The translations under genes were made by a program, and so were the position numbers. 64,000 nt of DNA from Thraustochytrium sp. TN22 (Eukaryota > Sar > Bigyra > Thraustochytrida > Thraustochytriidae). The stretch is taken from NCBI GenBank assembly GCA_013306675.1, contig JABLUY010000067.1:62001-126000 (forward strand), given 5' to 3'. Within the stretch, counting starts at the first letter, position 1; the number at the start of each line of letters is the position of its first letter. The notes beneath the pieces were generated by a model. That model did not search any database. It was not told where the DNA came from and saw nothing but the letters and a program-made list of their open reading frames with translations. This document shows positions 7,297 to 63,731 of the stretch, in pieces.

Positions 7297-7781
7297 CGCG
7301 CCGACCCGCGAGCCGGGCCGCGCCCGCGCGAGCCGCGCCGACCCGCGCCGACCCGCCGCCGCGCGAGCGCAATTCAGATTTGAACGCGCGCGCCGCCGCC
7401 TTCTCCTTCTCCTTCTCCTTCTCCTTCTCCTTCTCCTTCGCCTTCGACTCGACTCGGAGCAGATCCGGAGATCCGAGTCAACAGCCCAGCAAACCTCGGC
7501 AAGTCGCGTATCCGCGCCTCGAAACACAGGCCTTTAGCGAAGTAAGTCGCAGCAAGCAGTGGCAGCTCGCGCTGGCAGGGCCAGCTACGTAAAGTGAACT
7601 TTAGTTGCAGATAACCAACTAACGCGCCCCCAGGAGGCGGCGACCCGGAGGAGGCCAGACCCAGATCGCGGCGCGGGGCCGGCGGCGCGCGGCGGCGGCG
7701 CGGCGGCGGCGCGGGGCGGCGGCGGCAGCGGCGGCGCGGGGCGGCGCGGCGGCGGGGCCGGGGCCGCGCGGCGGCGGCGAG
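7297..7781. promoter_or_regulatory. Divergent promoter region, MIOS / EF-hand gene
   Basis: This is a 485-bp head-to-head spacer. A (CTCCTT)n polypyrimidine repeat occupies about 7399-7440, on the MIOS 5' side. A GGC-rich tract occupies about 7676-7780 before the EF-hand ATG. Both 5' UTRs must lie here. No specific factor site can be assigned. Confidence 0.4.
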
Positions 7782-9053
7782 ATGGCCGCGAGGTTCGTGG
7801 TGGTCGGCTTCGAGGGCCGCGAGGCGACGCTGCCGCTCGGGGAGACGGGCGCCGGCGCAGGACGGCTCGCGCAGCACTGCGCGGCGGCGTTCGGCGTGCG
7901 CGTGGAGGATGTGGTCGGGTTCAGGTCCGGCGAGACGGTAGTGCCCGTGACGCTCGTGGCAATGCTAGGCGCGAGGACATTTGGAGGACGGAGACTCGAG
8001 CTGCTCGTCAGGGTGCCCGACGTCGACGTGGGACCGGCGAGGTCGCCACAGTCGTTACCACCGGCAAGGCGCGAGCCCATGGCGAGCCCAGCGCCTAGCA
8101 GGCGCAGCGGCGGCGGCGGCGGCGGCCGCCGCCAGGCCGAGAGCACACGGCCGCTGCGCTACGCGCTCGTGGGCAGCCAGGCCGTGCTCGTGAGCAAGCG
8201 AGAACTCGTCGCCGTGCGTTTGCTGCGACAGGCGCTCGCCAACCTCTCGGTGCGCGCCGAGTCGCTCATCTACCTCTTCCGCGCCTACGAAGGTCACGAG
8301 CTCGTGTCCAGGGCCGACTTCATGGAGGTGGTCGAGGAGCACCTTTGCCCGGAGGGCATCGGCAACCCGGCGCAGGTTGACCGCATGCGCGCCCTGCTCC
8401 TGCGCTCTTTCTACTCGCTCGACGTCTTTGGCGAGGAGCTCGTGCCGATGCGCGAGCTCCTGGTGGGCCTCATCCTGCTCACGCCGGGCGACCTTGAACT
8501 CAAGTTCGCCTACATGTTCGAGCTCTTCGACATGAACCGCGACGGCGCGCTGCACCCGGGCCAGCTGCTGCGCCTAACGCGCTCGCTGCTCACCTTTGCG
8601 CTCTCCTTCAACGAGGGCATGCCCAAGCTACCATCTTCTTATGTGTACGCCCTGGTGGACGAGACCTGCGAGGCGGCGCTGTATACCGTGCCGGGCATCG
8701 GCGAAACAACCATCACGGCACGGCGCTTCTGGCGCTGGTACACATCCGTGGGCCGCAATCTCATGCCCTGGATTGAGCTTTTCGCGTCAGACGGGCACGT
8801 CGCGGACGCTCTGCGCTGGGTTGTCAAGGCAGATCCGTGGGGGCCTGAGCCACGCGCCTCGCCTCCTCCCATTGTCGCGCTTCTGAGTGAGAGCGCAGCA
8901 ACCTCGCCCTTGCACCGGCGGCGCTCGCCCTCGCCCGCAGCCAAAAGGGCGCAGATGAAGCACCGCTCCCCGCGTGCCGTGGCTTTCTCGCTCGGTCCAA
9001 ACAACAGCTTCATCTACGAGGGCGAGGATGCTGGTGGAGACGACGACGACGAT

Positions 9054-9091
<38 letters not shown>

Positions 9092-12000
9092 CGACGACGA
9101 CGACGACGACGACGATTCTGAAGACCGGGAGTGGAGTGCGGCGCGCTACGGGCAGCGAGGCCGCGACGTGGGCAAGGACGACATTGTCGATGACGATGAC
9201 GACGACAGTGACGGCGCCGTGGACGCAGCAGATCCTCTGCGAGACACATCGCCTCAACGCGGGACGGCCAAATCAGATTCCGGCGGCGATGCGCGTGTGC
9301 TCTTCCGATTCGAACTGGCGGAGGACCGCGAGCTGGTGCTGACCCAGCTAGACGCCGAGCTGGTGGACCTGATTGTGTCGACGACGCGCATCTCCGACAC
9401 GGGCGCAGAGGAAATGTACAGCCTGTTTTTGAACGCGGTGGCAGCGGACGGGGCGTCAGACCTCTCCAAGGCTGTCTTCGATCGATGCATCCGCGATCTG
9501 GTGCCAGGGCGACGCCTGGGCAAGCAGGAGCAGCGATACCTGTCGTACACGTTCTCAACGTTCTTTTACGCGTTCGATCGCGCGAGCGAGGACCGCGTGC
9601 CGGTAGATGAGTTTCTCAGCGGTTTCATGCTACTGGCCAGCGGCACCAAGTCGCAGAAGCTCTCGCTAGCGTTTTCGCTCTTTGATACGGATGGCGACGG
9701 CGCGGTCGACTCCATTGCCCTGGTCCGCTTTCTGCGCTCGTTCCTGACCTTCCTCTTCGCGCTGCAAAAGGATGCGCCCAAGCTGGACGCGGAGGAGATC
9801 TACTCCACCATCGACCGCACTGGCGTCGAGGTGGCGCGCGCCATCTATCGGTACCTGGGCAAGGCGGACCGCTCGCAGGTGAGCTTCCAGGAGTTCGGCG
9901 ACTGGTACAACGCGGCAGGCCACTCAGCCATCCCGTGGATCGAGCTGCTGGATCTCGGCAAGTGGCCGCTATCGCGCAGCCAGGCCTCGCCGGACGCGCA
10001 GCGCGGTTCGGCGGCACGCCGTACCGAGGCTGTGGCCCCGGAGGCCGGGTCGGTCGCGGCCGCCGAGGAGCGCCTGGTCTTTTTGGTTCCGCTGCGCGCG
10101 GGCGCCAGCGCCGGGGCCCCGCCGCGGGCCTCGCTCGAGATCAAGACGAGCGACGTGGCCTGCATCGAGGACCTGCTCTCGTGGACGCGTCTGGACGCCG
10201 CGGACGCCGACGAGCTGCACGCCGCGCTGGTGCGCGTCTCGCGCGGCTCAGACATCTCCATCGACAGCGCCTCATTCCTGCGCGCGCTGCGCGAACTGCA
10301 CGCTGTGGCGGCCGCGTCCGCCTCGGTGGGCCCGCCGCAGCGCGAGGTGGGCGCGGAGTTCGCGCGCGCGGAGCGCAAGCTGCTTGCGTTCTTCAAGCTC
10401 TTCGAGGCGGCCGACAAAAACCGCGCGGCGACGGACCAGGTGGCCAGCGCCCTCAGTCTGCTGTCGCAGGGCAACAAGAGCGATAAGCTGGCGGTCGGCT
10501 TTGCGCTCTTCGACCGCGACCGCGACGGCGCGCTCTCGCAGGCGGAGCTCACGCGCTTTCTCACCTCGCTGTTGCTTGGCCTGCACGGGCTTACGGCCGT
10601 GGCAGGACGCGAGAGCGCTTCGCGGATGCAGGCCGTCTCGGCGGCCGCGGCTACCGAGGCGGCGGCCGCCGTGAGTTCGTACCTGCAGGCGGACCAGGGG
10701 CGCGCGCGGGGGTCGCCGGTCTCCTTCGAGGACTTTGCGCAGTGGTACGCCGAGGGCGGCGGTTGTGAGCTGATCCCGTGGGTGGAGCTCTTCGACCTGG
10801 CCAAGTGGCCCCTGGGCGGGCCGCCGCTCTCGGCCGCCGCCGCCGGCGGCGGCGGCGGCGGCAGCGGCAGCGCGGATTCTGGTGACCTTACGGCCTCCGC
10901 CGCGGGCGAAAAGAATGGCGGCGGTGATGAGGATTGGTCACGAGGGTCTGACGCGCCGGTGCTGGACTTTCAGGTGGGCGGCGATGCGGACGTGGACCTG
11001 CGCATTTCACGACGCGACGCGCACTTCGTACTAGACGTGGCGTCGAGCACCGGGCTGCGGCTCATGACGGCGGCGAGCCTGCAGGCGCACCTGCTGCAGT
11101 ACTCTGTGCGCCGCGGCGGTCTGCCTGTACTGCAGATCGAGTCGTACATGGCGATGGTGAATGACTTGCTGGACCGCGCGCCCTCGCAGCCGGCGCGCGT
11201 GCGGCAGCGGCTCATGCGCACCTTCGTCACGATCTTCGGCTTACTGGAGACGCAGGCTTCGGTGGGCCGGGGCACGGTGCGCTTCAATGCGGTCTTTTGC
11301 GGCTTGCTTCTTTACACAGCCGGGCGCAAGAGCGACAAGTTCAACTTTGCCTTTTCCAGCTTTGACGAGGACCGCGACGGAAGCCTGACCCGCGCGCAGC
11401 TGCACGGCTTCTTGCTGGCCTTCCTCATGGGCCTGCGCGCGCTCTCAGCCTGCAGCGGCCGGCGTACGGGCCCCGTCTCGCAGGAAGACGCGGCGGACTT
11501 TGAGCGCCTCTCCGACGCCACCGTCCTGCTCGCCGGCCTCATTCTCACACAGACGGCATCGGTCCGCAGTCGCTCGGATGCCATCAGCTTTGAGGAGTTC
11601 TGCGCCTGGTACACGGACGGCGGCTTTCACCACATGGCGTGGCTTGAGCTGCTTGACCTGCGCAAGTGGCAGCACGTCCTGGACCACGCGTCCAGCGTCG
11701 ACCCCGCTGCCGCGAGCGCCGGCACTGGCACCGGTACCGGCACCGGTACCGGCACCGGCTCCGGCTCCGGCACGTTGGGCGGGGTTTGCGTCGACCTAGG
11801 CGAAGCGGAGGTGCGCGAGGACGAGGAGGATGTCATGTTTCGCTTCGTGCTCACGTCCGCTGGCGCGGAGATGGAGTTCCACAGGCACGACGTGGTGCAG
11901 CTACACCGGCTGCTGCAGGCGTCGGGGCTGCACGAGCAGCCGGCGAACGAGGTCTACAAGGCCCTGGCCCTGGCAGGCGAGCGCGTGGCGGAGTCGGATG

Positions 12001-12536
12001 GCGAGGGCTTCGTGCTAAGTCGGTCCTCCTTCCACCAGGTGGTGCGCCAGCTCATTCCAGGCAGCAAGCTTTCAGATGCTGACAAGGCAACGTTTTCGGT
12101 GCTGCTCTCCAGCATCTTTGCGGCCTTTGACCGCGCCTCAAGCCGGCAGGTGCCCCTTGTGGACTTTGCCTGCGGCTTCACGGTGCTTGCCTCCGGATCA
12201 AAGAGCGACAAGCTGGCACACGCCTTTGACCGATTCGACCGCGCTCGCCAAGGCGCGCTCTCGGCGACACTCTTTGCGCGCTTCCTCGGCTGCTTCCTCA
12301 CCTTTTTACTGGCTCTCAACGACGAGGCCTGCCGCCGGCCCGCCGGCGAGGTCTGGCGCGTTGTGGACGACTGCGTTCGCGAGGTCACGGCGCGCGTTTT
12401 CGCCGACCTCAAGCTAGACCCCTCCGCCAGCACTGGCATCACCTTTGAGCAGATTGCCACCTGGTATACGCAAGGCGGCCATGAGGTAGTCCCGTGGCTC
12501 GAGCTCCTCTCCGTGTCCAAATGGCCGGAGCTGTGA
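7782..12536 (+). CDS. Giant protein of five EF-hand modules
   Basis: A single 1584-residue frame holds five tandem modules. A complete module opens with a beta-like RF-x-L segment, continues with helices, then a calcium-sensor-type EF-hand region, and closes with WY-x3-G-x4-PW-(I/V/L)-EL. One clear calcium loop per module starts at residues 250, 635, 911, 1195 and 1486 (DMNRDG, DTDGDG, DRDRDG, DEDRDG, DRARQG). Only the third has the canonical Glu at loop position 12. The fifth has lost the ligands at positions 3 and 5. A run of about 27 Asp, broken by a few other residues, lies near residue 420-445 between modules 1 and 2. A Gly-Thr/Gly-Ser linker (codons at about 11720-11770) lies before module 5. 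The N-terminal 85 residues look like a small ubiquitin-like or beta-rich domain. The EF-hands suggest calcium sensing. No enzyme domain is visible and I do not recognise a named orthologue. Confidence 0.85.
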
Positions 12537-34484: not shown

Positions 34485-35776
34485 CCTCGCGCGAGTCCGC
34501 CATCTGCTCTGCAGTGGACGACCAGGGCGCCGCCAGTGCCCGGCTCGGGCGCGTGCCGTCGCACACGTTGCCTCAACGGGTCTACTAGCCTACTAACAGC
34601 TAACAACAGTAAGTAGCGTCTGCTCAGGCCTGCTCATCAGAGCTCGAGGCCAAGTCAGACTCGGAGTCAGGCCCGGGCCCAGGCGGCCTTGGAGTTTTGA
34701 GGAGGCCTCCCAGGGCTCCTGGGGCTCCTGGGGCTCCTACGCCGCGACGCGCGGCAGCAGCGCGGAGACTAAGCTTAGCTAGAACGCAGCAGGAGTGCTT
34801 GCTGGGCGCGTTGGGGACCGCCGGGAGGAGAGCGAAGCTCGCGACGAGCGCTCGCGCTTGCGTTCTTGCTCTACAGCTGCAGCAAGGGAGAGCAAGTTAC
34901 AGCACAGCAAGACATCTGGCTGACATCATCGCACAGCACCGCTTTTGATGCGTCCTTCCTCATCAGAGGGCGGCCCTGGCCCCTCTGCACTGCGACGACG
35001 ACAGTCACGCGCCAACTTCAAGTTGAAGCTCCACTGCCGCACGTCCGCCGGCGAGTTCGAGCCTGACTCGGACTGTGAGTCCGGCCGGCACTGGCACTCG
35101 ACGAGTCCGAGTCGTGGGCGCCGCGGCGGCGCGATCAAGCTCGCGGTCAAGCTCGACTCCCGAGCACATCGAGCTTCGAGTTCCGATCACTTGCCACCCC
35201 AGTCGGTCCTCGGTGCCGAGCATGACACAATCCAAGTGCGCGCCGCGAGTCCCGCGACGCTGAGCCTGATCCTGAGCGAGCACGAGGACTCGGAGCAGTG
35301 CCAGTGAGCAGCCGGCGACTCGAAGCTGGCCTGCTGCTGTGACTACTTGGGCTCGCGCGCCGCCTCCTCCTCCTCCTCCTCCTCCTCCTCCTCCTTCTCC
35401 TCCTCCTCCGCCGCCGCCGCCGCCGCCGCCACCGCCCCGCGCGGGCAGCAGACGGCCAAGGCAGCGGCGGCGCGGGCGCGGGCGCGGCGCGCGGCGCGCG
35501 GCGGCGGCGGCGGCGCGGCGGCGGGCGGGGGCGCAGAGCGGGCGACAGAGTCGTTGGGCGGCGGCGGCGTCAGTTGATCGAAGAGGCCTCTGGCCGCTGG
35601 CAAGCAAGCCTCCAACCATCCGCGCCCCGGCTGGCGCGGCGACGCCTCGGACGCGCGCGCGCGGGCGGAGACGCGGGCGGCGGGCGGCGCGGGCGGCGGG
35701 CGGACGGCCGTGCGCAGCGCCAGCGCCGCGCTGGGGCTGCTGGCGAGCGAGCAGGGCGCCGGGCGGAGCGGCGAGC
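34485..35776. promoter_or_regulatory. Divergent spacer, PH-domain gene / RIIa gene
   Basis: No gene is supported in 1.3 kb. A GGGGCTCCT 9-mer is tandemly repeated at about 34710-34738. CAGTGCCAGTG/CACTGGCACTC sites lie at about 35086 and 35294. TCCGAGTCG-type sites lie at about 35104. A (CTC)n then (CCG)n triplet tract lies at about 35365-35432. A frame running from 35339 into the RIIa gene translates the triplets as polyproline and is not considered part of the protein. Confidence 0.45.
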
Positions 35777-36094
35777 ATGGCAGAGCAGACGGCAACGGCC
35801 GGCGGCGCCGTGCTGACGGCGGAGCAGCAGGAGATGCTGAATGAGAAGAAGGTGATGCTGCGGCTGGAGAACGAGCAGTACCTGCGGGAGCACCCGGAGC
35901 TGAAGCGTATCTTGAACCAGTTTTTCGTCAAGGTGCTCAACGACAAGCCCGAGGACGTGGAGTCGTACGCGGCCAAGTACTTCACGGACTCGGCCACGTA
36001 CGCGACCGAGGGCAAGGCGCAGGGCGGGGCGCCCGGTGACGCGCAGCAGGCGCCAGCTGACGGGTCCCAGGACGGCCCTGACGTCTCGTCATGA
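35777..36094 (+). CDS. RIIAD1: Small stand-alone RIIa (dimerisation/docking) domain protein
   Basis: The 105-residue protein starts in a GCGAGC-ATG-GC context. Residues about 20-75 form an RIIa-type dimerisation/docking domain. The segment NEQYLREHPELKRILNQFF continues with a PEDVESYAAKYFTD end, which aligns with RIIAD1 and with the N-terminal domain of PKA regulatory subunits and sperm RIIa proteins. The last 30 residues are disordered (Gly/Ala/Gln). No cyclic-nucleotide-binding domain follows. Such small proteins dock to amphipathic helices of scaffold proteins, often in cilia or flagella, such as the radial-spoke neck. This supports a flagellated stage of the organism, by inference. It is convergent with the cyclase gene, whose stop is 227 bp away. 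Confidence 0.82.
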   Translation: MAEQTATAGGAVLTAEQQEMLNEKKVMLRLENEQYLREHPELKRILNQFFVKVLNDKPEDVESYAAKYFTDSATYATEGKAQGGAPGDAQQAPADGSQDGPDVSS

Positions 36095-36321: not shown

Positions 36322-36917
36322 TCATTTGACGGAGGCGAAATAGGTTCTCTGCGGAGGCGCGAGCGGGGATAGGTCGATGATATCGCGGGGCTCAAAGTTG
36401 AACAGGTCGTCCGCAGAGCGATTTTGCTTCCGCAGCGAGTCCAGTGCGGCCTGCGAAACGTGTACGCGGCCGGCCTTGCTCTTGCTCTCCATCATCTGTG
36501 CGAGAGCAACACTGTCACCAAAGATGTGGTAGCGCGGGTCCTTGAAGCCTACGACACCAGCGATGGCACTGCCTGCGTGGATACCGATGCGGATCTGAAT
36601 GTCGGGCTCCTCGATCTCCTCGGCCAAGTACATTTCACTCTGCTCGCGGAGCAAGGCAAATTCTTCCTCGCTCTTGGCCTGAAGCGTGGACCGTGGGGCA
36701 TCGCTGGGCTTACCGCCGAGTGTAATACGCACGTTGAGTCCGCGTCGAGATCCGATGCGGGCCACAGACGGCGTAGTGGTCACCACATCTAAGGTGTCCT
36801 GGCTGTCGCCGGCCTCCGCGGAGATGCTGTGGGGCTGCCAAGACGGCGGGTCTGCCTTTTCATCCTTGGTCTCCTGCTCGCTGACTTCCTCGATGGCGAG
36901 CTGAGGCGTCGACGCCG

Positions 36918-36954
<37 letters not shown>

Positions 36955-39900
36955 CTGCTCTTGCTGCTCTTGCTGCTCTTGCTGCTGCTGCTCTTGCTGC
37001 TGACTGGCTCGCGAGGCGCGGTCCATCTCAAATGAGTTGTTCGTGATCGAAAGGAGACGGCGCTCACGCATTAAGGCCCGACGCTTCTCCTCGTTTTCGC
37101 GGAGCAAAATCTTGTGCGCAACCTGGCGTAGCTCCGTGATGGAGTTCATCATTTCGATGGCGGCACGCATGGTCCTCTCCGTGTGGTCGCTGGAGAGCTC
37201 CGGGCAACCGCCCACAACGAAGTAGGCGTCGCCGATGATCTCAACCTTGTACAAGCCATACTTCTCACTGATGGCGTCGAAACGCATGTACATGGCATTG
37301 AGGAAATCCATGAGCGAAAGCGGCGAGATGCTGCTGGAGAATTTGGTGAAGCCCACCATGTCGGTGAAGAGGATGGTCACATTCTCGAAGTTGTCCACGA
37401 TGCGCGCGTGGTCGCCCTCCATGAGCACTGGTACAATGCTGGGCGGCAGCAGCTGCTGCATGAGCGCTGTCTTTTGCTCCTTTTGGATTTGCAACTTCTC
37501 GCCCTGGTCGAGGATGAGGCGGCTCTGGCAAAAGTCCTTGAAGAGGAAGTGGTCCTGCACAGCCACGCACCAAGTCTGGAGCAGCGCGGTCATGAGAAGG
37601 TAGCCCTCGTGCACCAATATGTCCTCCAGCGTCAGTTTGTTCTCCATGACGTCGACCGTGCGCATCATGTATCTGTAGTAGGTCTTCTCATTGGCCAACA
37701 TCTGGTAAAGGAGCAACGCCTGCGCCATGACGGACACGAGGAGCGACAGTAAGACGCGGTGCCGCATGGGGATGATTTGCTGGTTGATGAAGATTGTGAT
37801 GACCACCATGAGGAAAGAAGCGTTGGGGTGTTTCATGAGCACATTGAGCGCGATCGTGCATGCCACGCCAGTCATGAAGCCCAGCTCGACAATCACGAAA
37901 ACGTAGGCTCGCCAGCGTCGGTATCGTACCATTGCCTGCACGAGCGCACTCATCCCCATGAGGCCCAGGGTACCGCTAATCAGCATCAGGTACTGTGAGT
38001 CAGTGAAGGCAGAACCTTGCGCGGCACCATCGCCAGCCCGCGCGCTGAGCGTCAGATAGAGCCCGAGCTCGATGATGAGCGCAACCGGCAGGCAGACCAG
38101 AAGGAAGCTGGAGAAGCGCCGGATGTTGACTCGCCCACGGCGCTGCTGCACCTCTTGAAACTCGGGCGATCCCAGAGAAAGGGCCAACCACAAGGCGCCA
38201 AGGATGGTGGCCCGGTCGAACCTGTTGCCCTCGAAAATGCTGCCATGCTTAGAGTCCAGCACGGGTAGTGTGCCGTCCGCCCGTGCGCGGATGTAGGTCC
38301 GCAGGCGCTCCTCCTCGCGCTCAAGCGTTGTGGAACGGTCCTTACTCGCCGAGGAGTAAAAGGTCTGGGCCGAGTTGTTGTCATCCTTTGGTGTGGCGAG
38401 GATTGATGACTCCGACGAGTTTTTGGGCTCCGGCACGGGTGCCACCTTGGAACGCCGCGTGGACCCAGGCAGGTTGGAGAAGCCGCTCACGGACCAGGTG
38501 TTGAATAAGGAGTTGTGATTGGACGCGATGTGCTCAAGCATTTGCGAGCGATCCTTGATGAGGGCGTTCTGGCCCTTGCGGTCGAGCGTGTCCTTGCGCC
38601 CCGTCAAGAAATAGGTCTCCATGTTGCCCTTGCCCTTGACAGAGATCGTGCCTCGGGGCTCGAGCACGAACTTCTTTGCCAGCATCGCGTATGTGGAGGG
38701 CGAGACCTGGATCCTTCCCTCCGGACAGGTCGACTCCATGCGCGAGGCGGTGTTGACCGGGTCGCCAAAGAGCTTGAAACGCGGGCTCTTCTGGCCCACC
38801 ACGCCTGCGACGATCGCCCCAGAGTTGAGGCCGATACGGATTTGCACGTCCTGCCCTAGCGTCGGCACGGTCTGGCGCAGCAGGCGGTTGATTTCCGGCA
38901 TGATCGTGATGAACTCCAGCGCGAGCTCCGCCACGTCCTCGGCATGGCGCCTGCTGCGCTGCGGGCAGCCACCCACCACCATGTACACCTCGGCGATGGT
39001 CTCCACCTTGTACACGTCGTAGTCCTCGAGAATCGAGTCGAAGACTGAGAAGATGGTGTTGAGGATGTCAACCAGCTCCTCGCGCGACTGATGCGCGGAG
39101 ATGCTGCTGAACTTGCACACCTCGACGAACATGACTGTGACGGACGCGAACTTCTCGGCGATGCGAACGGGCGCTTCCGCATCGCTGCGGTCCTGCAGCG
39201 CCTCCGAGATTACGTCCGGGAGCATGCTGCGCAGCAGGTCCCGCGTCTTCTTTGTCTCCTTTTCCACCTCGCGCGTCTGTTCCAGCAGCAGGTGCTGGCT
39301 GATGATGGACCGCCGCAGATTGAGCTCGCGGTGGAAGGAGACGTACATGAGGAAGAAAAATGCACAAGCTGTCGTCCCGCTCATGATGAACACCGTCTGC
39401 TGGGTCAGGTTCGCGTCGTTCGCTTGGGTCGCCGCCCGATTTGACATGAATGCAAAGACTATGTAGAGGCTAATCGTGAGCCCGGCGATGAGCGAGGCGT
39501 TTCGCATCGTCAGCGGCGTGCTGGTGAAGAGAACGATGCAGAAGAGCACCGGATTCATGTTGCTGTAGTTGTCTGAGTCCAGCTTGTCCATCACGAGCGC
39601 CAACCCGACGCCAAGGAAAAGCACACCAGAGATCACCTGCGCGTAGTTGAGAAAGAACCTTGACGTGATCAACACGAAGGCCAGCGGCAGAGACACTGTG
39701 CCGATGCCGAAGATGAGGCGCTCCCACGCGTCTGGTGTGTAAAACGTGTAAAATAGTGCCACCAGGAAGGTGCTCATGCAGAGAAGCTTGAGCAGCGGCC
39801 GGTAGCGCAGCGCATTGAGTTGCCGAAACTCGGTCTCCAATATCTCACAGGCCAGCTTGTCGCCCTCGTACCTGAGCCACGGCTGCGCGACCTTGACCTG

Positions 39901-40029
39901 TGTCACGTGCTTGCACAGATACCGCAAGCGCCGTCGACGCTCCGCCGCGGTCCGCTTGCGCACCGCGAGCACATGTTTGGCGAAGCGCGCGCGCAGCCTC
40001 AGCCCTGCGGGCGAGTCTGACGACGCCAT
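36322..40029 (-). CDS. Twelve-TM, two-domain class III nucleotide cyclase
   Basis: The 1235-residue protein has the mammalian adenylyl-cyclase plan. Six membrane helices (about residues 80-250) are followed by cyclase domain C1 (about 285-460), about six more helices (about 600-770), and domain C2 (about 860-1225). C1 has Glu303 and Glu347 where the two metal-binding Asp normally sit (FVEVCKF, IAEVYMVVGG), but keeps the transition-state Asn426 and Arg430 (NTASRMES). C2 keeps both metal Asp, D890 (FTDMVGFT) and D934 (IGDAYFVVGG), but has Ala1175 and Met1179 in place of Asn and Arg. A C2 insertion of roughly 160 residues includes a Gln-rich tract at about 1009-1041. In C1 the purine-contact positions read Glu (KVETI) and Lys (PRFKLFG), so ATP or GTP preference cannot be called. 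A longer upstream frame starts at GTG and was rejected. Confidence 0.9.
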
Positions 40030-40904
40030 ACCGCCCCACCGCCTCGCGCCAGAAGCGCACGAGCGCGAGCGCGCGCGAGGCCGCCGCTGCCTCGCTACTC
40101 CGCCCAATGATTCTGGAGCGCATACGGCAAGATGAGCGAGCAAGCACCGCACCACGCAAGCTGCCAGCTTGCTCCGCGCAAGGCCCGAACCTCAGGCCTC
40201 GCTTGCCACAGTAGGTCGTCGCCAACGCACCTCTGGAGAGAAAAAAACGAGGGAAAGAAACTTACGAAAGCCACCGGCTACGTCACAGCGGCACTCAGGC
40301 TGCACCCACTCGGCGGTGCCGGTTCCGTTCCGAAGTTTCAGGCTTGAAACGGCTCGGACTGGGCGACCTCATTCCATCAAACAACAACGCATTCGGATCA
40401 CCGTGATCCAGCCACTGGATGCCATGGCACACAGTCGGCGTCACCGATTGCTTAGACCTCGGAAGCTCAAATAACGAAAGCCGGGCGCGACGCGAGACGC
40501 GACCCGACTCAAGTGGTGGGGCGGTAAAGCGAACCGCAAGGTGTGTGCGCGGACCCTTTTTTAAACTGTGGTGATGCACGCGGCCGGGACGCCGGCGGAC
40601 GCCGCGCCGCGGCGGCGGGGGCGCACAGCCGCGCACTGCACTGCGGTGCAGCTCAGGCCCTTACAGAGTCACAGTCAGCGTACGATTGTGTGGAGCGTTA
40701 CCATTTGGAGGCTTGCTCGGTTCTGTTTCTTGTCGGATTTGAGCACTTCGGAAAGCCGGAAGAGCGTGCTCCTTTCCTGCCTTGGCTTCATTTCATGCTC
40801 CTTCCTGGCGTTGCATGCAGGCCTAATTAGCTAGCTGGCTAGCTAGCTAGTAGCTACTTGAGCTCGAGGCTCTCTCACCGGCAATTTGGGAGTCAGCTTA
40901 ATCG
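40030..40904. other. Spacer between cyclase promoter and PDCD2 3' end
   Basis: No gene is seen in 875 bp. The part next to 40029 should be the cyclase promoter and 5' UTR. A GCTA tetramer run at about 40826-40855 lies just past the PDCD2 stop, as after TSG101. Confidence 0.4.
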
Positions 40905-42242
40905 TCACTGCATTTTGGCAGGGACGCCACGCTTAGGAGGGCCGGCAAGCTCGGACAGCAGTACGGCGTGCTCATAAACAGGCGCGCAGGCGTTCGCGAC
41001 ACAGCTAAAGGGGCACACATAAACGAGCAGCGTGAGGAAGTCGACGTCTACAGAAGCCACGCTGTGCCGCAGCTCCCAGAGCGCGGCGGGCAATATCTGT
41101 AGCTCAAAGACGCGCGCGTTCTTGCACGAAGGACAAGCCGGAATGGCCGCCTCCTCAGCGGCGGTGAGCTTCCGGGGCAGCAGAGGCTCGCAATCGTATG
41201 CGTATCGGAGGCACTGCGCCGGCGCTGCTGCCAGGTAGTCGTCGAACTCCTCGCGAAGCTCCGCAGCTGCCAGTGCCGCAGCATCCTTTGTAACGTCATC
41301 ATCGTCATCGTCGTCGTCGTCAGGGGCCGAGGTGTGGCGCGCCTCGCCGCCTTCCCCCTCCGCAGCGAGTTCCGCCTCGTACCTTTCCAGCAACTCCTTG
41401 GCGTGCGCTTGATCTTTGACCCGTTGCACGGTTCCATCAAAACCGGCTTGCCACTCCGCCTCGTCCACCACGTCGAGCAGTACGCTGGTGTCCTCGACCA
41501 TTCGTGCGTTTGGGTCTGCCCGCGCCGCCTCAGCTGGCTGAGCGTCAGCAGAAGACGGCGGCGGTGGCGGCGACGACTGCTCCTGCTTCTCCACAGCATC
41601 TGCGCTCGCGGCGATGGCTGCATCCCGCTCCGCGAGAAGGCCCTCAAGGTCCTCCAGTGTCGCGGTGGCGTCTGGGCCATCATCGGCGCCCCACGCGAAG
41701 GCGGCGGCCTTTTGCTTCTTCTTTTTCTTCTTCTTCTTCTTCTCCTCCTCCTCCTCCTCCTCCTTCTTCTTCGTTGTTGTCGTCGTCGTCGTCGTGGCCG
41801 TTGCGCCGGAGGACGACGCGCCGTCCTTCTCGGCAGCCGTGGCGCCTTCCGGCTGCGCAGCGGCGCTCTTGGCGGCATCCTGGCCGGCCGCGCGCCCCTC
41901 CTCGTCGTCCACGAGGCCCTCCTCCACGCGCAGGACCGCTGCGCCGGGCGCCGCGCAGGCGTCGGCATTGCACACGAAGACAAGCAGCGAGCGCGGCCGG
42001 CCGTCCTCCACGGGCGCGTAGACCTGCGCGAGCAGCACGAGCGGCGCGGCGCAGCCCGCGCACGGCGGCGGCGTCGGCGGCGGCAGCGAGGAGGACCACC
42101 GGTCCATGAGCCATGGCACGCCGCCGATCTTGCTCGCGGCGGGGTCCAGCGCGCGGCGCGCGGGCGCCAGGCGGCCCGCGGCGGGGGGCTCGCCCGCCCC
42201 GCCCCGCGCCACGGCGCGCGGCACGCCCAGGAAGGCCGCCAT
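40905..42242 (-). CDS. PDCD2: PDCD2-family protein
   Basis: The 445-residue protein starts at the ATG at 42242. Upstream codons in the same frame are Arg/Ala-rich and overlap the neighbouring promoter. The N-terminal region has the family motif KIGGVPWLMD. A zinc-binding block follows (CAGCAAPLVLLAQVYAP, then LLVFVCNADAC), as in the PDCD2 N-terminal fold. A charged low-complexity linker (poly-Lys/Glu at about 170-190, Asp run near 320) separates it from the C-terminal PDCD2 domain (LRYAYDCEPLLPRKLTAAEE, CPSCKNARVFELQILP, LTLLVYVCPFSC). In yeast and animals PDCD2 proteins are chaperones for ribosomal protein uS5 (RPS2). The domain order is complete. Confidence 0.88.
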   Translation of the reverse strand: MAAFLGVPRAVARGGAGEPPAAGRLAPARRALDPAASKIGGVPWLMDRWSSSLPPPTPPPCAGCAAPLVLLAQVYAPVEDGRPRSLLVFVCNADACAAPGAAVLRVEEGLVDDEEGRAAGQDAAKSAAAQPEGATAAEKDGASSSGATATTTTTTTTKKKEEEEEEEKKKKKKKKKQKAAAFAWGADDGPDATATLEDLEGLLAERDAAIAASADAVEKQEQSSPPPPPSSADAQPAEAARADPNARMVEDTSVLLDVVDEAEWQAGFDGTVQRVKDQAHAKELLERYEAELAAEGEGGEARHTSAPDDDDDDDDDVTKDAAALAAAELREEFDDYLAAAPAQCLRYAYDCEPLLPRKLTAAEEAAIPACPSCKNARVFELQILPAALWELRHSVASVDVDFLTLLVYVCPFSCVANACAPVYEHAVLLSELAGPPKRGVPAKMQ

Positions 42243-42360
42243 GCCCGCGGCGGCGCCGCTGCGCTGGGGCTCTGCCGGCGGCCATGCGCAGAGTCGCAGA
42301 CCTGGTTCGCCTCGCCTCGCCTCGCCTCGCTCCGAGCGCAGCGCAGCACTCTCCGGCGCC
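42243..42360. promoter_or_regulatory. 118-bp head-to-head promoter, PDCD2 / rhomboid
   Basis: Only 118 bases separate the two ATGs, so both transcripts must start inside this stretch or inside the other gene. A CGCCTCGCCT repeat lies at about 42308-42330. No TATA-like sequence is visible. Confidence 0.6.
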
Positions 42361-43281
42361 ATGCTCGCAGCGCTGCGCGCGGCGCTGCCGCGGGGCGCCG
42401 CGTGGAGCAGCGGCCTGGCAGCCGCGCCGGCGGCCGGCGCGCGCGCGGGCGGGGGCGCAGGCGCCATGGCGCGGGCGGCGGCGGCGCGCCCGGGCCTGGG
42501 CCTCGCGCCGCGCGCGCCGCTCGCGACGCGGGCGCTGCGCGCGAGCCCCACGCCCGCGGCCGCGCCGCTCGCGACGGCGCTGCGCGGCGCAGGCGGCCTG
42601 CGCGCGGGACGGCCCACACGCGCGCTGGTGCCGCCGCCCCGGGCTGGCCTGCCGGCCGGCGCGCGCGGCATGTATGGCGGCGCGTATCAGCGGGACGCGG
42701 GCAACCTCGTCATCGGGCTCATCGGCGCCAATGCGGCCGTCTTCGTCATGTGGAAGACGGTGAGCCCGTACTTTATGTTCCAGCACTTTACGTGCACGCC
42801 CGACGGCGTGCTGGGCTCCGGCAGGCTGCACACCTTGCTCACCTGCACCTTCTCGCACACCGACATCTGGCACCTGCTCGTCAACATGATTGGCCTCTAC
42901 TACTTTGGAAGCGGCATGTTGGCCTACGTTGGGCCGCGCTTCTTCCTGACCGCCTACCTCGGCTCCGGCATCGTGTCGTCGCTCGCGCAGATCGCGCAGT
43001 CCTACTACGAGCGCCGCCGCACCGTGCTGCTTGGCGCCTCTGGCGCCGTCAACTGCTGCGTCATGTACAACGTGCTGGCCAATCCACGCGCCACCGTCCT
43101 CATCTACGGTGTCATCCCGGTTCCGCTCGCAATCTTCGGCATCTTTGTCATGTTCCAGGACGTCTTCGGCGCCGTGTCTTCGGCGCCGGCACCTGGGGCC
43201 ACCCGCATTGGCTACACAAGCCATCTCACCGGCGCCGCAGTCGGTGCGCTTTGCTTTCTCGCCACACGCCGCCGGTTCTAA
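42361..43281 (+). CDS. Mitochondrial-type rhomboid serine protease
   Basis: The 306-residue protein's first 110 residues are Ala/Arg-rich without acidic residues, a probable mitochondrial transit peptide. The rhomboid core follows with six predicted membrane helices. The HTDIWHLLVN block supplies the oxyanion-region His and Asn. The nucleophile is Ser227 in LLGASGAV. The catalytic base is His288 in SHLTGAAVGAL. All active-site residues are present, so it should cleave membrane helices. By transit peptide and length it resembles PARL/Pcp1-type enzymes that process inner-membrane proteins. The ATG at 42361 was chosen because earlier in-frame ATGs (42106, 42241) overlap the PDCD2 coding region on the other strand. 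Confidence 0.87.
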   Translation: MLAALRAALPRGAAWSSGLAAAPAAGARAGGGAGAMARAAAARPGLGLAPRAPLATRALRASPTPAAAPLATALRGAGGLRAGRPTRALVPPPRAGLPAGARGMYGGAYQRDAGNLVIGLIGANAAVFVMWKTVSPYFMFQHFTCTPDGVLGSGRLHTLLTCTFSHTDIWHLLVNMIGLYYFGSGMLAYVGPRFFLTAYLGSGIVSSLAQIAQSYYERRRTVLLGASGAVNCCVMYNVLANPRATVLIYGVIPVPLAIFGIFVMFQDVFGAVSSAPAPGATRIGYTSHLTGAAVGALCFLATRRRF

Positions 43282-43983: not shown

Positions 43984-44002
43984 ATGGGCGCGAGCGATGG
44001 CC

Positions 44003-44037
<35 letters not shown>

Positions 44038-46842
44038 AGCGGCGCGAGCGCGAGCGCGACGGCCAAGGACGAGGTGGAGGCGCGCCTGGTGGCGAGCATC
44101 GAGGTGATCACCAAGGGCCTGCAGATCAGCGCGAGCAACACGTCGGAGATGGTGGGCGCTCTGCGCGACTTCGAGGAGCGCGTCAACAAGCTGGAGCGCG
44201 CCGTGGAGCCCATCCATACGCTGACGGAGCGGCTGTCGCTGGCACAGCGCAACATCAACTCGACGCTGGCGCACTTCGAGAAGATCCACCTGCACTTCCG
44301 CGCGGCGGATGAGGTGCGCGGCGTGCTGCAGCGGTCCACACTGCTCAAGTCGGAGGACCGGCGCGAGCGCGAGCAGTACTTTGCAGCACTGCAGCGGCTG
44401 TGCGAGTCGTATGCCTTCGTGGAGAAGCACCCAGAGTTCATGTCGAGCGCCGCGCAGGGCAGTGAGCTGGCTGACACGCGGCAGTTCGCCTCGGATAGCA
44501 TTTGCATCGAGTTCGAGGTCTCGCTTGAGCGGTACGCAGCGTCGGCGCGCGACTACCTGGGTCCGCACGTGGACGCGGACTTTGACGGCGCCGACCCGCT
44601 CGCCATGCACGAGGCCATGCCGCCGGACGTGGGCAACCGCCTCCGCGAGCTGGCGGACTGCCTCGTGCGTTGCGGCCTACAGGGCGCTTTTGCACAGGCG
44701 TACGGCCGTAGCCGCGGGCGCGTGCTGTGCGAGTCTTTGGACGAGCTGGCATCCTCCTTCTGGAGCGATGCGGCGCTCCCCACGTTGCTGGGCGACCCGC
44801 AGGGGAGCAGTCGGATGCGGCTCACCGTGCACACCGCCCCGACCAGCAAGGCTTCGTCCTTTGCGCATGCATCGCCCGCCGCGCCTGCGCACGAGCCTCC
44901 TGCGGCCCCGCTGGCCATGCCCGAGCCGGTAGCGCGGCCGCCTCTGGCGCCCATGCGCGCCATTGCCTCGATGCGCGGGCCGCGCAGCGCGCGCCCGCTC
45001 CCGCTCACGCCCGACAGCGCGACCCAGAGCTTCCGCGACGACAAAAGCGAGACGCAGTCGCACAAGAGCATGTCGTACAGGAGCAAGAAGATCGTCTCCA
45101 AGTCAAAGAAGTGGACCAAGAAACTGCTGGGCCGCGGCAAGAGCAAGTCCGGCAAGGACGGCGGCGCCTCCGTGGCTGGCAGCGCTCTGGACGAGGCGGA
45201 CTTCGACGAACGCCTCGACGAGGTCGACGAGGTCGAATCCGCTTTCAAGGAAGGCCCACCTGGGCCACTGCCGCCGCGGCCGTCGGGCCACACCGCCGCA
45301 TCCGAGACCGAGGACGCGCCGCTTCCGCCGCTGCTGACGCCGCAATCAACGGGGGCCATGCGCGCGCTCATGCGCGGCGCCGTGGGTGGCGGGAGCTCGT
45401 TTCGGGACGCGCCATCCGCCTCACAAAGCTATGCGAGCGGTACGCACCACCAGCCGTCCCCTGGCCTCATGAGCATGTCGTCCACCAAGTCGCGCGCCGC
45501 AGCCGCAGCGTCTGCCGCCGTCCCATACCGCAAGTACGTCGAGGGCGAGCACCGCATGATGGACCTGCTGGAGCTCGCCGCGCATGCGCTCGAGGCCGAG
45601 CTCGCGCTCTCGGTGCGCGCATTGCCGCGAGGCCGGCCCGGGCGCCGCTGCTTCCTGGATGCCATGGTGGACCCTTGCGAGCGTCTCGCGCGCATCGGTA
45701 TGAAGGACGCGCTCGACTACACACGCAAGGCGTACGCGGCGCCAGAGGCCGTCTTCGCTGCCGCCGATGTGCTGCAGAAGCTGCACAACCTGCAGCCCAA
45801 GTTCTTTGAGATCCTCGCGCCCGGCTCGCTCTCGTATCTCTCCGAGGACGCCGAGGAGCCGGGATCGCCGCGCCGTCGCAGCGAGAGCGCCGAACGCGGG
45901 TCCGCACCCCCTACGCCGCAGACGCCCACCTTTAGCCAGCGCAGCGAGGAGGCGCTGCCGCAGGAGGCGTGGAACCAGTATCTCCTTCTGTGCAAGTCCT
46001 GGCGCAGCGACGCAGTGCAGAGCCTGCCACGCGCCTATATGGCGCTCCTGCAGCCCCTGGCGGGTATCCCGGCGTCTGCCTCTGTGCACCCGGCCAGCAC
46101 GCGCGTGCTCTCGTTCGCGCGGCGGCTCTGCTCGCACCGAGAGGTCGTGCAATCGCTTCTAGTCCCGGAGGACACAGACCCGCAGTCGACCAGCGCCGAG
46201 GCCGAATTCAGGCTCAACATCGAGCAGCTCGTCGACAAGTACGTTGGCATTCTGCAGCAGTCGGCAGCGACGGCGCGAGCGCCGCCACCCGCCGAGCGCC
46301 TCTTTGTGGTGAATAATGTCCACTTCCTCGTGGCTGGCGCCTCGCGCGAGGAGGGCTACCTGGGCGAGCTCATGGATTCCTCTGAGTTGCTCGCTGCGAA
46401 ACGCCGCGACCTCGACCACGCCAAGCATGCCTACGTGGAGGCGGTCATCGCGCCCATCAAGCGCTTCCTCGGGCCCGGCCAGCCGGAGGGGCTGTCTGCA
46501 CAGGACAAACACGGCACGGACAAGAAGCCGATTCGCGAGTACTGCGACGCGTGGCATTCGTGGGCTGACTCCGTGCACCGCTCACAGACCAAGCTGGAGG
46601 TCCCTGACGTGGAGTTGCGGACCGAGCTGCGTTTCTTGCTTCGCCGCGCCCTCCTCGACTCGTACGCGCAGGCGTATGACCGCCTGCAGGCGCACCCGTA
46701 TGTGCAGCGCAAGACCATCTCGGCCCTCCTGCCGTACTCGCCCGACATTCTCTCCACAATGATCTCGCAATTTTTCGAGATTTCCGAGACGGCCTCCGAC
46801 CCGCGTGCCGTCGCGTCCTTTGCGGAGGGCCGCACAGGATAG
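43984..46842 (+). CDS. EXO70: Exocyst subunit EXO70 (EXOC7)
   Basis: The 952-residue protein aligns with EXO70 along its length. The N-terminal helical segment (VGALRDFEERVNKLERAVEP, then IHTLTERL and AQRNINSTLAHFEK) is the family hallmark. Mid and C-terminal blocks follow: FVVNNVHFLVAGA, where the family has a MNN motif, and LRTELRFLLRRALLDSYAQAYDRL. The last is LLPYSPDILSTMISQFFE, equivalent to the KY-x-PEDLE tail. A Lys/Arg-rich insert (about residues 355-395) and a low-complexity linker (about 280-510) are extra. EXO70 anchors the exocyst to PI(4,5)P2 at the plasma membrane and tethers secretory vesicles. The N-terminal polyglycine follows a GGAGGC-ATG-GG start. It is convergent with CCZ1. 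Confidence 0.85.
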
Positions 46843-60373: not shown

Positions 60374-62497
60374 TCAAGGCACGGACGTACTTGTTGTGGG
60401 GTCCGCGATCTCCAGTGCGTCCAGGCGGGCGAGCCCACAAATGAGGCCGGTTGCCGGGTCGCGGACAAAGCAGTCGCCCCGGAGCGTGAGCTCGCCGCGA
60501 TCCGCACTGTCGAGTGCGAGAAGGTCGCTGACAACGCGCTGAGAGCCTAGATACGGATGCGCGACGCACGCATCGCGAAAGTCATGGCCGAGGGACACGC
60601 ACAGGGTCCCGTTGACCCGGAGCGCGTGGCCAGCATCCAAGACGACGTTGAAGACGGCGTCGACCTGGTCGCCGCGCTCCAGGACGGCACTCGGCAGTTC
60701 GCATGGAAAGGCCCAGGCGCCGTCCACGTGCACGGGGTGGTACGGCGTGAGCAGGAGGTCACCGGGGAGGCGCACGAGCGGGTCGCAGGCGGTGAGCTTG
60801 TCGAGCTGGAAGCGCACGAGCAGGCGCACGGTGGCAGGACGGCCGCCCCAGGACTGCACGCGGTCGCCGCGACGCAGCCGGTCGATGCGCTTGGAGGTAC
60901 CGTCCGCCATGGTGACGAGGCAGTGGGGCGCGAAGCAGCCGCGCGAGCGGTTGTTGTACATGTGGCGCATCTTGGCGGCGGAGATGGGCGCCGCGGAGGG
61001 CCGGCGCGAGGGCTTGGGGGGCGGGACGGCGTCAAAGGCGGCCTCGGCCGCGTCGCGGAGGCCAAGGAAGCAAGGCCCGCGCGCGTATGCTTGCACGCCC
61101 GGGTCTTTGAAGTTGTTGCATCGCTGGAGTGCGTGCGCGGCGAGCAGCGAGCGCATGTAGTGGCGGCCCCAGCGCTGGAAGGCGTTCGCCGAGCCGACGC
61201 CCTCGGCTACCTGGCCCTCGAGGTCGGCGAGCAGCGCCTCGGCCTGCTTGAGGGCCGGGCCCGACTCGAGGCGCGAAAGGGCGTCGCGCATGGCTGCCGC
61301 GGTCGCCTGGACGCGGGCGGTGAGCACGTTCTCCTGGAAGATCCCAGCGGCCAGCTCTTCGAGGACGACGGCCAGCGAGTAGCGCAGCGCCGCGACTGTA
61401 GCCATCGCGTCGCGGTCCGGGGTGGCCGTCACGGCCCGCGCGTCGGCGTGTAGGCGCTCCGGACCGCTGGATGGCCGCCAGAAGAGACCGATGGCTTCGA
61501 CCGAGGCGCCTCCAGACAGGCGAACCAGCACGGAGCGCGGCTGCGAGAACTGCAACGGGCCGACCTTGACGAGAACGCCCCAATCTGCGGTCTCCACACC
61601 GTACTGCGCTTGAAGTGCTTCCTCACAAGACGCCTCGAGGCAGGCTCCCTCGGGCAGCTCCAAGGCGAGCTGCGCGTCCATGGCGCAGGTGGCGAAGGCG
61701 TTGGCGCACGCGTGGATGAACACCGTGCCAACCAGTCCGGCATCCGGGATGAAGGCGTAGGCACCAGCACATGTGCGCGCGATGTTTTGCAACAGCTTAC
61801 TGTCCATCTGGTAGCCAAATCCGAAGGTGTACACGGAGCAGGGGAGCTGACCCGCAGATTCCAGGTAACGTAAGAGCGTGGGCATGTGGCCACGTGGCGG
61901 CTCGACGTTGGGCATGCCGTCCGTGAACAAGAAGATGCCGCCCATGACGCCGGCGGCACCGTCCGGGCTGCGGCAGATGAGGTCCAGACCCTCCTTGAGG
62001 CCGCCCCAAAGGTTGGTGGTGGACCCCGGGCGGAGGCGGTCCACGCGGTCTTTGAGCGCCGCCTTGCCAGCCGCGTTGCAGCGCACGCGCTCGCAGACCA
62101 CTTCAGCTCGGCTGTCAAAGGTGACGAGCGACATGAAGTCGTTCTCGCCCGCCGCGCCCAGCACCGTGAGAATCGAGTGCTTGACCACGTCCAGCACGGA
62201 GAGCCCGCTGGATTCGGACGAGCCGTCGGCGTCCTTGACACTGGCATCCGTGCCCATGGACCCGCTCACGTCGATCACACAGCAGGTGTGCTGCGGTAGC
62301 GGCCTCGCCGGCATGTCTGGCGGAACAAGCGTGACCAGGGTGCCGTCCTCCACCTCGCAGCGCTCCACGTGCACCTCTCCCACCTTGGCCGGCGCCGCGG
62401 GCGGCCCAAGCTCAGCCCGCGCCGTCACGGGCTGCGCCACGGGTACGCTCTCTTGTTTGGACTCGCGGGTCCCGCCTCTCATCCAGCTCGAGAGCAT
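60374..62497 (-). CDS. VWA-Hint (Vint) domain protein
   Basis: The 707-residue protein starts at the ATG at 62497. Codons upstream translate a repeat and have no counterpart. The von Willebrand A domain (about residues 65-255) has an intact MIDAS: DVSGSMG (D76, S78, S80), STTNLWGG, and FTDGMPN. A helical region of about 250 residues follows. The C-terminal Vint domain is of the Hedgehog/intein (Hint) type: nucleophile-position Cys521 in SRGCFAPHCLVTMADG, then LRRGDRVQSWGG and LLTPYHPVHVDG. Eukaryotic Vint proteins are often paired with VWA or ubiquitin-related domains. Whether this Hint self-cleaves is unknown. No obvious splice-acceptor residue (Asn-Cys) ends the domain, so a cleavage or ligation role is uncertain. 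No signal peptide is present. Confidence 0.85.
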   Translation of the reverse strand: MLSSWMRGGTRESKQESVPVAQPVTARAELGPPAAPAKVGEVHVERCEVEDGTLVTLVPPDMPARPLPQHTCCVIDVSGSMGTDASVKDADGSSESSGLSVLDVVKHSILTVLGAAGENDFMSLVTFDSRAEVVCERVRCNAAGKAALKDRVDRLRPGSTTNLWGGLKEGLDLICRSPDGAAGVMGGIFLFTDGMPNVEPPRGHMPTLLRYLESAGQLPCSVYTFGFGYQMDSKLLQNIARTCAGAYAFIPDAGLVGTVFIHACANAFATCAMDAQLALELPEGACLEASCEEALQAQYGVETADWGVLVKVGPLQFSQPRSVLVRLSGGASVEAIGLFWRPSSGPERLHADARAVTATPDRDAMATVAALRYSLAVVLEELAAGIFQENVLTARVQATAAAMRDALSRLESGPALKQAEALLADLEGQVAEGVGSANAFQRWGRHYMRSLLAAHALQRCNNFKDPGVQAYARGPCFLGLRDAAEAAFDAVPPPKPSRRPSAAPISAAKMRHMYNNRSRGCFAPHCLVTMADGTSKRIDRLRRGDRVQSWGGRPATVRLLVRFQLDKLTACDPLVRLPGDLLLTPYHPVHVDGAWAFPCELPSAVLERGDQVDAVFNVVLDAGHALRVNGTLCVSLGHDFRDACVAHPYLGSQRVVSDLLALDSADRGELTLRGDCFVRDPATGLICGLARLDALEIADPTTSTSVP

Positions 62498-63731
62498 TTT
62501 TCTCGCGAGCGAGCCGCGCGAGCGAGTCGTGCGAGCGCGACTCGTGCGGGCAACTTGTGCGAGCGACTCGTGCGAGCGACTCGTGCGTGCGAGCGAGCTG
62601 GTGCAAGCTATTCGGAGCGCACGTTGCGGGTTTGCTGCTCCCCCGCGACCCGATCGGTCTCCGAGTCGACCTTCCCAGCGTGTGCAGATTGCGCAGGCTC
62701 TCGCGTTTCGAGATCTGCCTGGCCGTACTGCACTGCACTCTCCTGTCCTGGCACGCTCTTCGCTGCACTCGCGGCAGCCTGCGAAGTGCCTCCTCAGCTC
62801 AGGCTGGGCCGAGTCCGCCTTGACGCGCACGCCGGGCCGCCCCGGCCGCCCTCACTGTGGCACTGCAGGCCTCAGCTGCGTCTCGCCAGACTCGGACGCC
62901 GGCCGCGCGCAGGACCCAGGACCCGGACTCGCTCGCTGGCGCGGGGCTGGCGACGCCGCTGCCGCCGCCGGGCCGCCCCTCCAGTGGCGCGCCGTCGGAG
63001 AGCGGCGCGGAGAGCGGCTGCGCGAGAGCGGCTGCCCGAGAGCGGGCGAGAGCGGGAGAGAGCGGCAGCGCGGGTGCATGCGCACGTCCCGTGACCATGA
63101 CCGGGGCCTTTGCGTGCGCTCTGTACCGTGCGCAGGACGTGCTCGGCTCGGCGCAGGACGGGCCGACGACGCGGAGGCGGAGATGGCGCAGATGACGGAG
63201 CGCAGTTGCGGAACGTGCAGCGGCGCGGCGAGGGGGACAATGCAGCGCAGATGAGAGGAACAGGGCGCAAAAGACTCGGACGCGGCGCGCCGCACGATGG
63301 GAACGACCTCAGGCTGAGCACTGGCACGCGGTCAAGAACGACAATGCGCGCTCCGGCGCGCTCCGGCGCGCTCCGGCGCGCTCCGGCGCGCTCCGGCGCT
63401 TCGAAGTTCCTTCGGAGGCCTTCGGAGTCTCGAACTCGAAAGCGGCCGGCCACCGCCGAACCCGCGGTTGATAGTGGCGTCTACGAGCTGGCGGATCATA
63501 GCTTTCCGGGCCCGGCCGCCACTGCACGGTGATGCCACCTGGCTGGCCACTCATCTCTGCTTGCGCGAGAGTGTCGGAGGTTCGACGGCAGCCAGCCCGG
63601 ATCGACAACGCTGAAGCTGACGCACAGACCGCTGCCACGAAGAACTCGACGCGGCCACATGGCCAGGCAAGCGACCCGAGCGACGGACGACGGCAGAACC
63701 GCAAAGTCCTCTGAGTCAATAGGAAAGCAAG
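62498..63731. promoter_or_regulatory. Divergent spacer, VWA-Hint / secreted protein
   Basis: No gene is supported in 1.2 kb. A GCGAGCGACTCGTGC-type degenerate tandem repeat lies at about 62506-62600, next to the VWA-Hint ATG. Five exact CTCCGGCGCG-type 10-mers lie at 63351-63400. GGCACTGCAGG and CACTGGCACG sites lie at about 62860 and 63318. CGGACTCG/ACTCGGAC sites lie at about 62889, 62931 and 63268. Confidence 0.45.
63351..63400. repeat. Five tandem 10-bp units
   Basis: CTCCGGCGCG is repeated five times (the last with one change) in a GC-rich divergent promoter. The 10-bp period is close to one helical turn. Confidence 0.9.

Follow-up and report, generated by a model that had tools for sequence, protein, structure and literature searches.

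We describe here a gene of the thraustochytrid Thraustochytrium sp. TN22 that is predicted to encode a twelve-transmembrane (12-TM) class III cyclase with its catalytic half-sites in inverted order. It lies in a window of 64,000 nucleotides (contig JABLUY010000067.1 of GenBank assembly GCA_013306675.1, positions 62,001 to 126,000), at 36322..40029 on the minus strand, and translates as one open frame of 1235 amino acids with zero internal stops. The Pfam family Guanylate_cyc matches the protein in three stretches with 337.7 bits against a cut-off of 21.9, identifying class III nucleotidyl cyclase domains; there are three stretches rather than two because the second domain is split into two matches by a poly-Gln-bearing insert of ~170 residues. 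We kept the ATG at 40029, the start also adopted by the initial annotation, which had been made from the letters alone; the frame itself opens at 40155, and an in-frame GTG 42 codons upstream of the ATG is an alternative start. We interpret the protein, with reasonable confidence, as a membrane-bound guanylyl cyclase belonging to the inverted 12-TM kind.

The protein follows a plan of six transmembrane helices (M1), a cyclase domain (C1), six more helices (M2), and a second cyclase domain (C2), with six hydropathy peaks ahead of each cyclase domain. On the minus strand, M1 is predicted at 39340..39795 (residues 79-230), C1 lies at 38584..39162 (290-482; Pfam, HMMER, and alignment), M2 is predicted at 37564..38103 (643-822), and C2 lies at 36325..37419 (871-1235; Pfam, alignment, and AlphaFold2). 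The Kyte-Doolittle profile has 17 peaks of at least 1.0, of which 12 were taken as transmembrane (six at 79-230 and six at 643-822) and 5 were set aside, namely four that fall within the cyclase domains (294, 366, 394, and 1144) and the weak peak at 607 (1.01). Two of the in-domain peaks set aside (1.39 and 1.34) exceed the weakest two kept (1.22 and 1.26), and the predicted local distance difference test (pLDDT) is low for most of these stretches in the AlphaFold2 model (mostly low in M1, low in M2), leaving the membrane plan unconfirmed by the model. The helix between M1 and C1 (39196-39291, minus strand; residues 247-278) matches the end of the HNOBA profile at 22.6 bits, under the cut-off of 23.4; in soluble guanylyl cyclases, that end is the helical linker preceding the cyclase domain.

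Canonical catalytic columns were set by alignment with AC5, AC8, AC9, and GC-C, and a script check found all eight residues named by the initial annotation at the numbers it gave. In C1, Glu303 (39121..39123) and Glu347 (38989..38991) replace the first and second metal-binding Asp, and the transition-state residues Asn426 (38752..38754) and Arg430 (38740..38742) are retained. In C2, the first and second metal residues are present as Asp890 (37360..37362) and Asp934 (37228..37230), and Ala1175 (36505..36507) and Met1179 (36493..36495) stand in place of Asn and Arg. The purine-contact pair of C1 is the Glu/Lys previously reported, with Glu343 (39001..39003), a residue of guanylyl type, at the first position and Lys419 (38773..38775) at the second; the C2 pair is E930/H1168. 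C1 also retains Lys465 (38635..38637) of the VKGKG motif, the phosphate-contact Lys of mammalian C2, and the corresponding C2 column holds Ser1221 (all positions on the minus strand). The metal Asp pair is thus in the second domain and Asn/Arg in the first. Since the losses all fall on one interface site, the other site is left whole, and the best reading of the alignment agrees with the initial annotation in proposing one composite active site, with metals bound by C2 and the base and transition-state residues supplied by C1, in a predicted C1-C2 pair sharing a single site.

Mammalian 12-TM adenylyl cyclases use the opposite order, as the initial annotation had stated and the alignment bears out. 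The C1 domains of AC5, AC8, and AC9 carry Asp/Asp without the full Asn/Arg pair (Thr/His, Asp/Lys, and Asn/Leu were found), and their C2 domains carry Ser/Ser or Ser/Ala at the metal columns with Asn/Arg present. The window protein is the mirror of this order, with Glu/Glu plus Asn/Arg in C1 and Asp/Asp plus Ala/Met in C2, and the arrangement that defines a mammalian-type transmembrane adenylyl cyclase (metal Asp in C1, Lys/Asp plus Asn/Arg in C2) was rejected for it by alignment. The mirror extends to overall similarity, as window C1 shares 37/38/33% identity with the C2 domains of AC8/AC5/AC9 and 30/27/28% with their C1 domains, and window C2 shares 36/33/35% with their C1 and 29/24/24% with their C2. 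HMMER likewise scored window C1 on mammalian C2 over C1 in 3/3 enzymes (AC5, AC8, and AC9), by a modest margin. GC-C, at 49%, is closer to window C1 than any adenylyl domain compared.

Such crossed resemblance could suggest a mammalian-type adenylyl cyclase whose halves were exchanged by domain shuffling, and the grouping of window C1 with mammalian C2 was indeed not rejected by the approximately unbiased test (p-AU 0.098 and 0.142). The complementary grouping of window C2 with mammalian C1 was rejected (p-AU 0.017 and 0.023), with some pull from long branches, and the six mammalian domains sit inside the adenylyl group, with both window domains outside it, in two trees. In the 25-row tree, both window domains fall with GC-C, CYG12, soluble guanylyl cyclase alpha, RhGC, and a GAF-domain cyclase of the same genome (contig C419), opposite the bacterial and mammalian adenylyl domains (support 100/98), and the earlier 24-row tree agrees (98/97). 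Joining both window domains to all six mammalian domains was narrowly rejected (p-AU 0.047). We therefore regard an exchange of halves as very improbable, and independence from the mammalian enzymes is supported by these comparisons. Window C1 and C2 as sisters were neither shown nor rejected (p-AU 0.492 and 0.313). The tests are weakened by long branches (window C2 and C419 in the 24-row tree, C419 in the 25-row tree) and by the several groupings tested; the trees hold no alveolate sequence and do not settle the order inside the guanylyl side, and a few alignment columns are the specificity columns themselves.

The catalytic states of C1 were also compared with 101 related domains in 89 loci, comprising the best 80 of 451 genome-contig loci (prokaryotic) and 9 viral-contig loci, a set selected through degenerate patterns and resemblance to C1, and therefore biased to canonical domains. 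Glu occurs at either metal column in 0/101 of them (one is cut off before the first column), Asn and Arg are retained in 101/101, and 99/101 read Asp/Lys/Asp/Asp/Asn/Arg at the six positions, which sets the pattern of window C1 apart from chance variation. Genome-contig loci are canonical wherever the columns are present, and so are the viral-contig loci except for one whose second base position is Thr. NCBIfam returned 0 families.

AlphaFold2 supports the cyclase fold of each domain. The full-chain model (predicted template modeling score, pTM, 0.45) is good for C1, with pLDDT mostly >90, fair for C2, and poor elsewhere, and a separate prediction of residues 830-1235 reached a mean pLDDT of 83.9. 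A trial alignment of 30 rows placed nearly all residues of each row on C1, so C2 and the membrane parts were thinly covered in the alignment behind the full-chain model. Structure prediction thus upheld the fold of each domain without establishing the placement of C1 against C2.

Several observations weigh against an active inverted guanylyl cyclase. Across both domains, the full-chain model deviates from AC9 and AC5 by a root mean square of 25.8-27.0 Å over 398-440 residues, so the C1-C2 pairing is unconfirmed and the model neither confirms nor refutes a shared site; by fold, window C1 gave tied Z scores against mammalian C2 and C1. Lys at the second base position was found in 0/101 of the related domains, and Lys419 could disturb the pocket. 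No orthologue was found in the prokaryotic genome-contig and viral-contig scans. The poly-Gln insert sits inside C2. Published attempts to show activity with the recombinant GC1, GC2, and GC1+GC2 of Toxoplasma were unsuccessful, and parasite mutants were relied on instead (PMC6592433).

Part of this evidence would fit a catalytically dead receptor or scaffold with a decayed cyclase pair, as one interface site has lost both of its half-sites, C2 is interrupted by a large insert of low complexity, and Lys419 is an odd residue for its position. The losses are nevertheless confined to one composite site; in the other, both Asp are present along with the first base residue, Lys465, Asn, and Arg. 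Decay at random should strike both sites, and the frame is open over 1235 codons. We consider a dead protein quite unlikely.

The insert itself, of ~170 residues with estimated bounds of 971-1140 (36610..37119, minus strand; poly-Gln run at 36919-37002), has pLDDT <50 in its middle. It is long and partly low-complexity, a frame-neutral intron is conceivable, and three donor-like words lie within residues 960-1150, so an unremoved intron read as coding, or a sequencing or assembly artefact, could be invoked. Third-position GC of the insert (0.75) is near the values on either side of it in C2 (0.85 and 0.73), and the changed catalytic residues lie in diverged motifs (FVEVCKF, IAEVY, and VALAQMM); as whole motifs have diverged, the changes are not single-base slips. 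Error of either kind is hardly credible as an explanation. We therefore continue to read the gene as that of a real and probably active inverted guanylyl cyclase, varying on a kind already known.

GTP is the likely substrate, because Glu343 is the guanylyl-cyclase residue. The second purine-contact position is reported as Cys, Ala, Gly, Thr, or His in guanylyl cyclases and is Asp in adenylyl cyclases (PMC6592433, PMC4215837), and when the C1 pair is held against the guanylyl type (Glu with Cys/Ala/Gly/Thr), Glu343 fits and Lys419 does not. As Lys is a hydrogen-bond donor and guanine O6 an acceptor, the Glu/Lys pair is chemically compatible with guanine, and Lys419 could contact O6. The unusual pocket suggested by the initial annotation is therefore unusual at Lys419 and of ordinary guanylyl type at Glu343. 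An enzyme of the same inverted build that prefers ATP or accepts both nucleotides has to be weighed here, given that Glu/Lys is not a standard guanylyl pair and that Lys419 is without counterpart in the related domains. In Ma1120, a Lys-to-Glu change at the first position altered adenylyl cyclase activity by -92% and guanylyl cyclase activity by +364% at pH 7.5, the figures at pH 9 being 62% and 78%; kcat/Km was still higher for ATP than for GTP in this single mutant and in the tabulated double base-pair mutants, and ATP and GTP were equal in a triple mutant (PMC4215837). Against an ATP preference stand Glu343, the 49% identity of C1 to GC-C, and the position of both domains on the guanylyl side of the tree, and we consider it unlikely.

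For the guanylyl cyclase that we favor, M1 and M2 would each lead, by way of a helical linker, into a class III cyclase domain, and C1 and C2 would pair head to tail so that one of two pseudo-symmetric interface sites is complete. In that site, Asp890 and Asp934 of C2 would hold two divalent metal ions, and C1 would hold the base through Glu343 and Lys419, the phosphates through Lys465, and the transition state through Asn426 and Arg430. The other site, where Glu303/Glu347 would face Ala1175/Met1179, would be dead and free for a regulatory role. GTP would be converted to cyclic GMP (cGMP), which may act on effectors such as a kinase resembling the cGMP-dependent protein kinase (PKG) and a channel with a cyclic-nucleotide-binding domain, both encoded in this genome.

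The genome makes such cGMP effectors plausible. It holds 118 matches to cyclic-nucleotide-monophosphate-binding domains, and Pfam finds three such stretches followed by a kinase domain, a PKG-like order, at C222:509130-510116, and an ion-channel domain with one such domain in a second frame checked. Guanylate_cyc has 21 matches on 14 contigs, and among these no contig other than that of the window carries two domains at a comparable score: other two-match contigs reach at most 39.5 bits, and C399, with two by our own profile, 40.5. That profile, run over 13 regions of the other 13 contigs, found domains in 12 and none in C183; C245, C190, and C181 have one cyclase domain in frame, and several other regions hold tandem weak domains that we read as putative soluble-type cyclases. 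The GAF-domain cyclase mentioned above (3654-6416, minus strand, of the region taken from C419) has a guanylyl-type Glu with Thr as its base pair, making it another candidate guanylyl cyclase in the genome.

Other genes were noted in passing. Tail to tail with the cyclase and ~230 bases from it, a small protein at 35735-36094 (plus strand) has a weak match to the RIIa dimerization/docking domain (E 0.002, under the Pfam cut-off); domains of this type dock onto anchoring proteins in PKA and in cilia. The next gene upstream of the cyclase encodes a PDCD2_C protein (40905-42671, minus strand). Elsewhere in the window are a MIOS-like WD40/zinc-ribbon protein (2875-7527, minus strand), a large EF-hand protein (7782-12533, plus strand), an Exo70 C-terminal protein (43984-46839, plus strand), and an 818-amino-acid frame with VWA, Vwaint, and Vint (Hint, intein-like) domains (60377-62830, minus strand). 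The 37.9 Mb genome also carries an OrfA-like polyunsaturated fatty acid synthase frame of 3044 codons (C124:26703-41142; 2539.7 bits against a cut-off of 1010.1, passed by 0/14 control genomes), beside which lies an oppositely oriented frame of 2083 codons, an arrangement typical of thraustochytrids.

Among known systems, soluble guanylyl cyclase alpha/beta likewise combines two unequal domains into a single working composite site, and the Asn/Arg motif of its alpha chain is NNVTLANKFES; the enzyme differs in having two separate chains and NO (nitric oxide) sensing, without a 12-TM plan. The mammalian transmembrane adenylyl cyclases AC5, AC8, and AC9 share with the window protein the 12-TM plan and a pseudo-heterodimer with one intact site, and are unlike it in their reverse half-site order, Lys/Asp base pair, and separate position in the tree. 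Dictyostelium GCA, compared on plan only, has 12 transmembrane helices and two cyclase domains without an ATPase region (PMC6592433, PMC11988041, PMC1435932), and a stramenopile/alveolate family that joins a voltage-sensor part to one cyclase domain has a different plan (PMC12223298).

The closest precedents are the alveolate guanylyl cyclases linked to a P4-ATPase (TgATPaseP-GC, PfGC-alpha/-beta, and those of Paramecium and Tetrahymena), in which two six-helix sets are each followed by a cyclase domain and the half-sites are inverted (PMC6592433, PMC5746546). In TgATPaseP-GC, whose GC1/GC2 sequence is described as inverted, GC1 holds the nucleotide and transition-state residues E2987/A3137, N3144, and R3148, with one metal Asp replaced by Glu (E2991), and GC2 holds the two aspartates D4029 and D4073, with L4153/M4157 in place of Asn/Arg (PMC6592433). 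The Toxoplasma spacings (+4, +7, and +4) equal those of the window protein (343-347, 419-426, 426-430, and 1175-1179), so that E347 corresponds to E2991 and M1179 to M4157, states that we take from the residue numbers in that paper. Toxoplasma thus shares with the window the Glu at the second metal site, the Glu first base residue, and Asn/Arg in domain 1, and the Asp pair and the Met in domain 2. The independent degeneration after fusion proposed by the initial annotation is accordingly supported with respect to the mammalian enzymes, as judged from the trees and p-AU values, but its complete independence from alveolate guanylyl cyclases is doubtful because Toxoplasma shares the second-metal Glu and the Met for Arg. 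The reversed order has already been published for alveolate enzymes, so the window protein is not new in kind.

Unlike the alveolate enzymes, the window protein is without a P4-ATPase domain and its host is a stramenopile. A P4-ATPase fusion was considered and rejected, as the frame opens at 40155 and the PDCD2_C gene ends 750 bases upstream, and the 8 PhoLip_ATPase_C matches scored in the genome are all on other contigs. The ATPase-linked protein is described as alveolate-specific (PMC6592433), and P4-ATPase domain activity as essential for cGMP synthesis by PfGC-alpha (PMC7858053). Further differences from Toxoplasma are the loss of both C1 metal Asp (one in Toxoplasma), Lys419 in place of Ala3137, and the site of the insert, which is long and in C2 in the window and of 74 residues and in GC1 in Toxoplasma. 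No inverted 12-TM cyclase of a stramenopile was found among the papers listed by the literature searches, which is weak evidence, as subscription journals were mostly missing from it. Tentatively, and with some doubt, we suggest that the window protein keeps the pre-fusion form: the inversion and the loss of the domain-2 Arg to Met might predate the alveolate/stramenopile split, the P4-ATPase having joined later in alveolates, and Lys419 might read guanine O6, a mode of base reading that none of the other guanylyl cyclases compared here showed.

What is new here is the thraustochytrid host, the lack of a P4-ATPase, the loss of both metal Asp, the Glu/Lys pair, and the poly-Gln insert in C2. 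A stramenopile relative lacking the ATPase would reveal the function of the cyclase half on its own and help date the inversion and the fusion, and an enzyme from a seemingly free-living protist would serve for testing how a composite site of reverse order is assembled. The Lys at the second base position offers a chance to test its effect on the choice between GTP and ATP. Set beside the alveolate enzymes, the worth of this cyclase is its ATPase-free form outside the alveolates, the degenerate residues that it has in common with Toxoplasma, and its Lys419 pocket.

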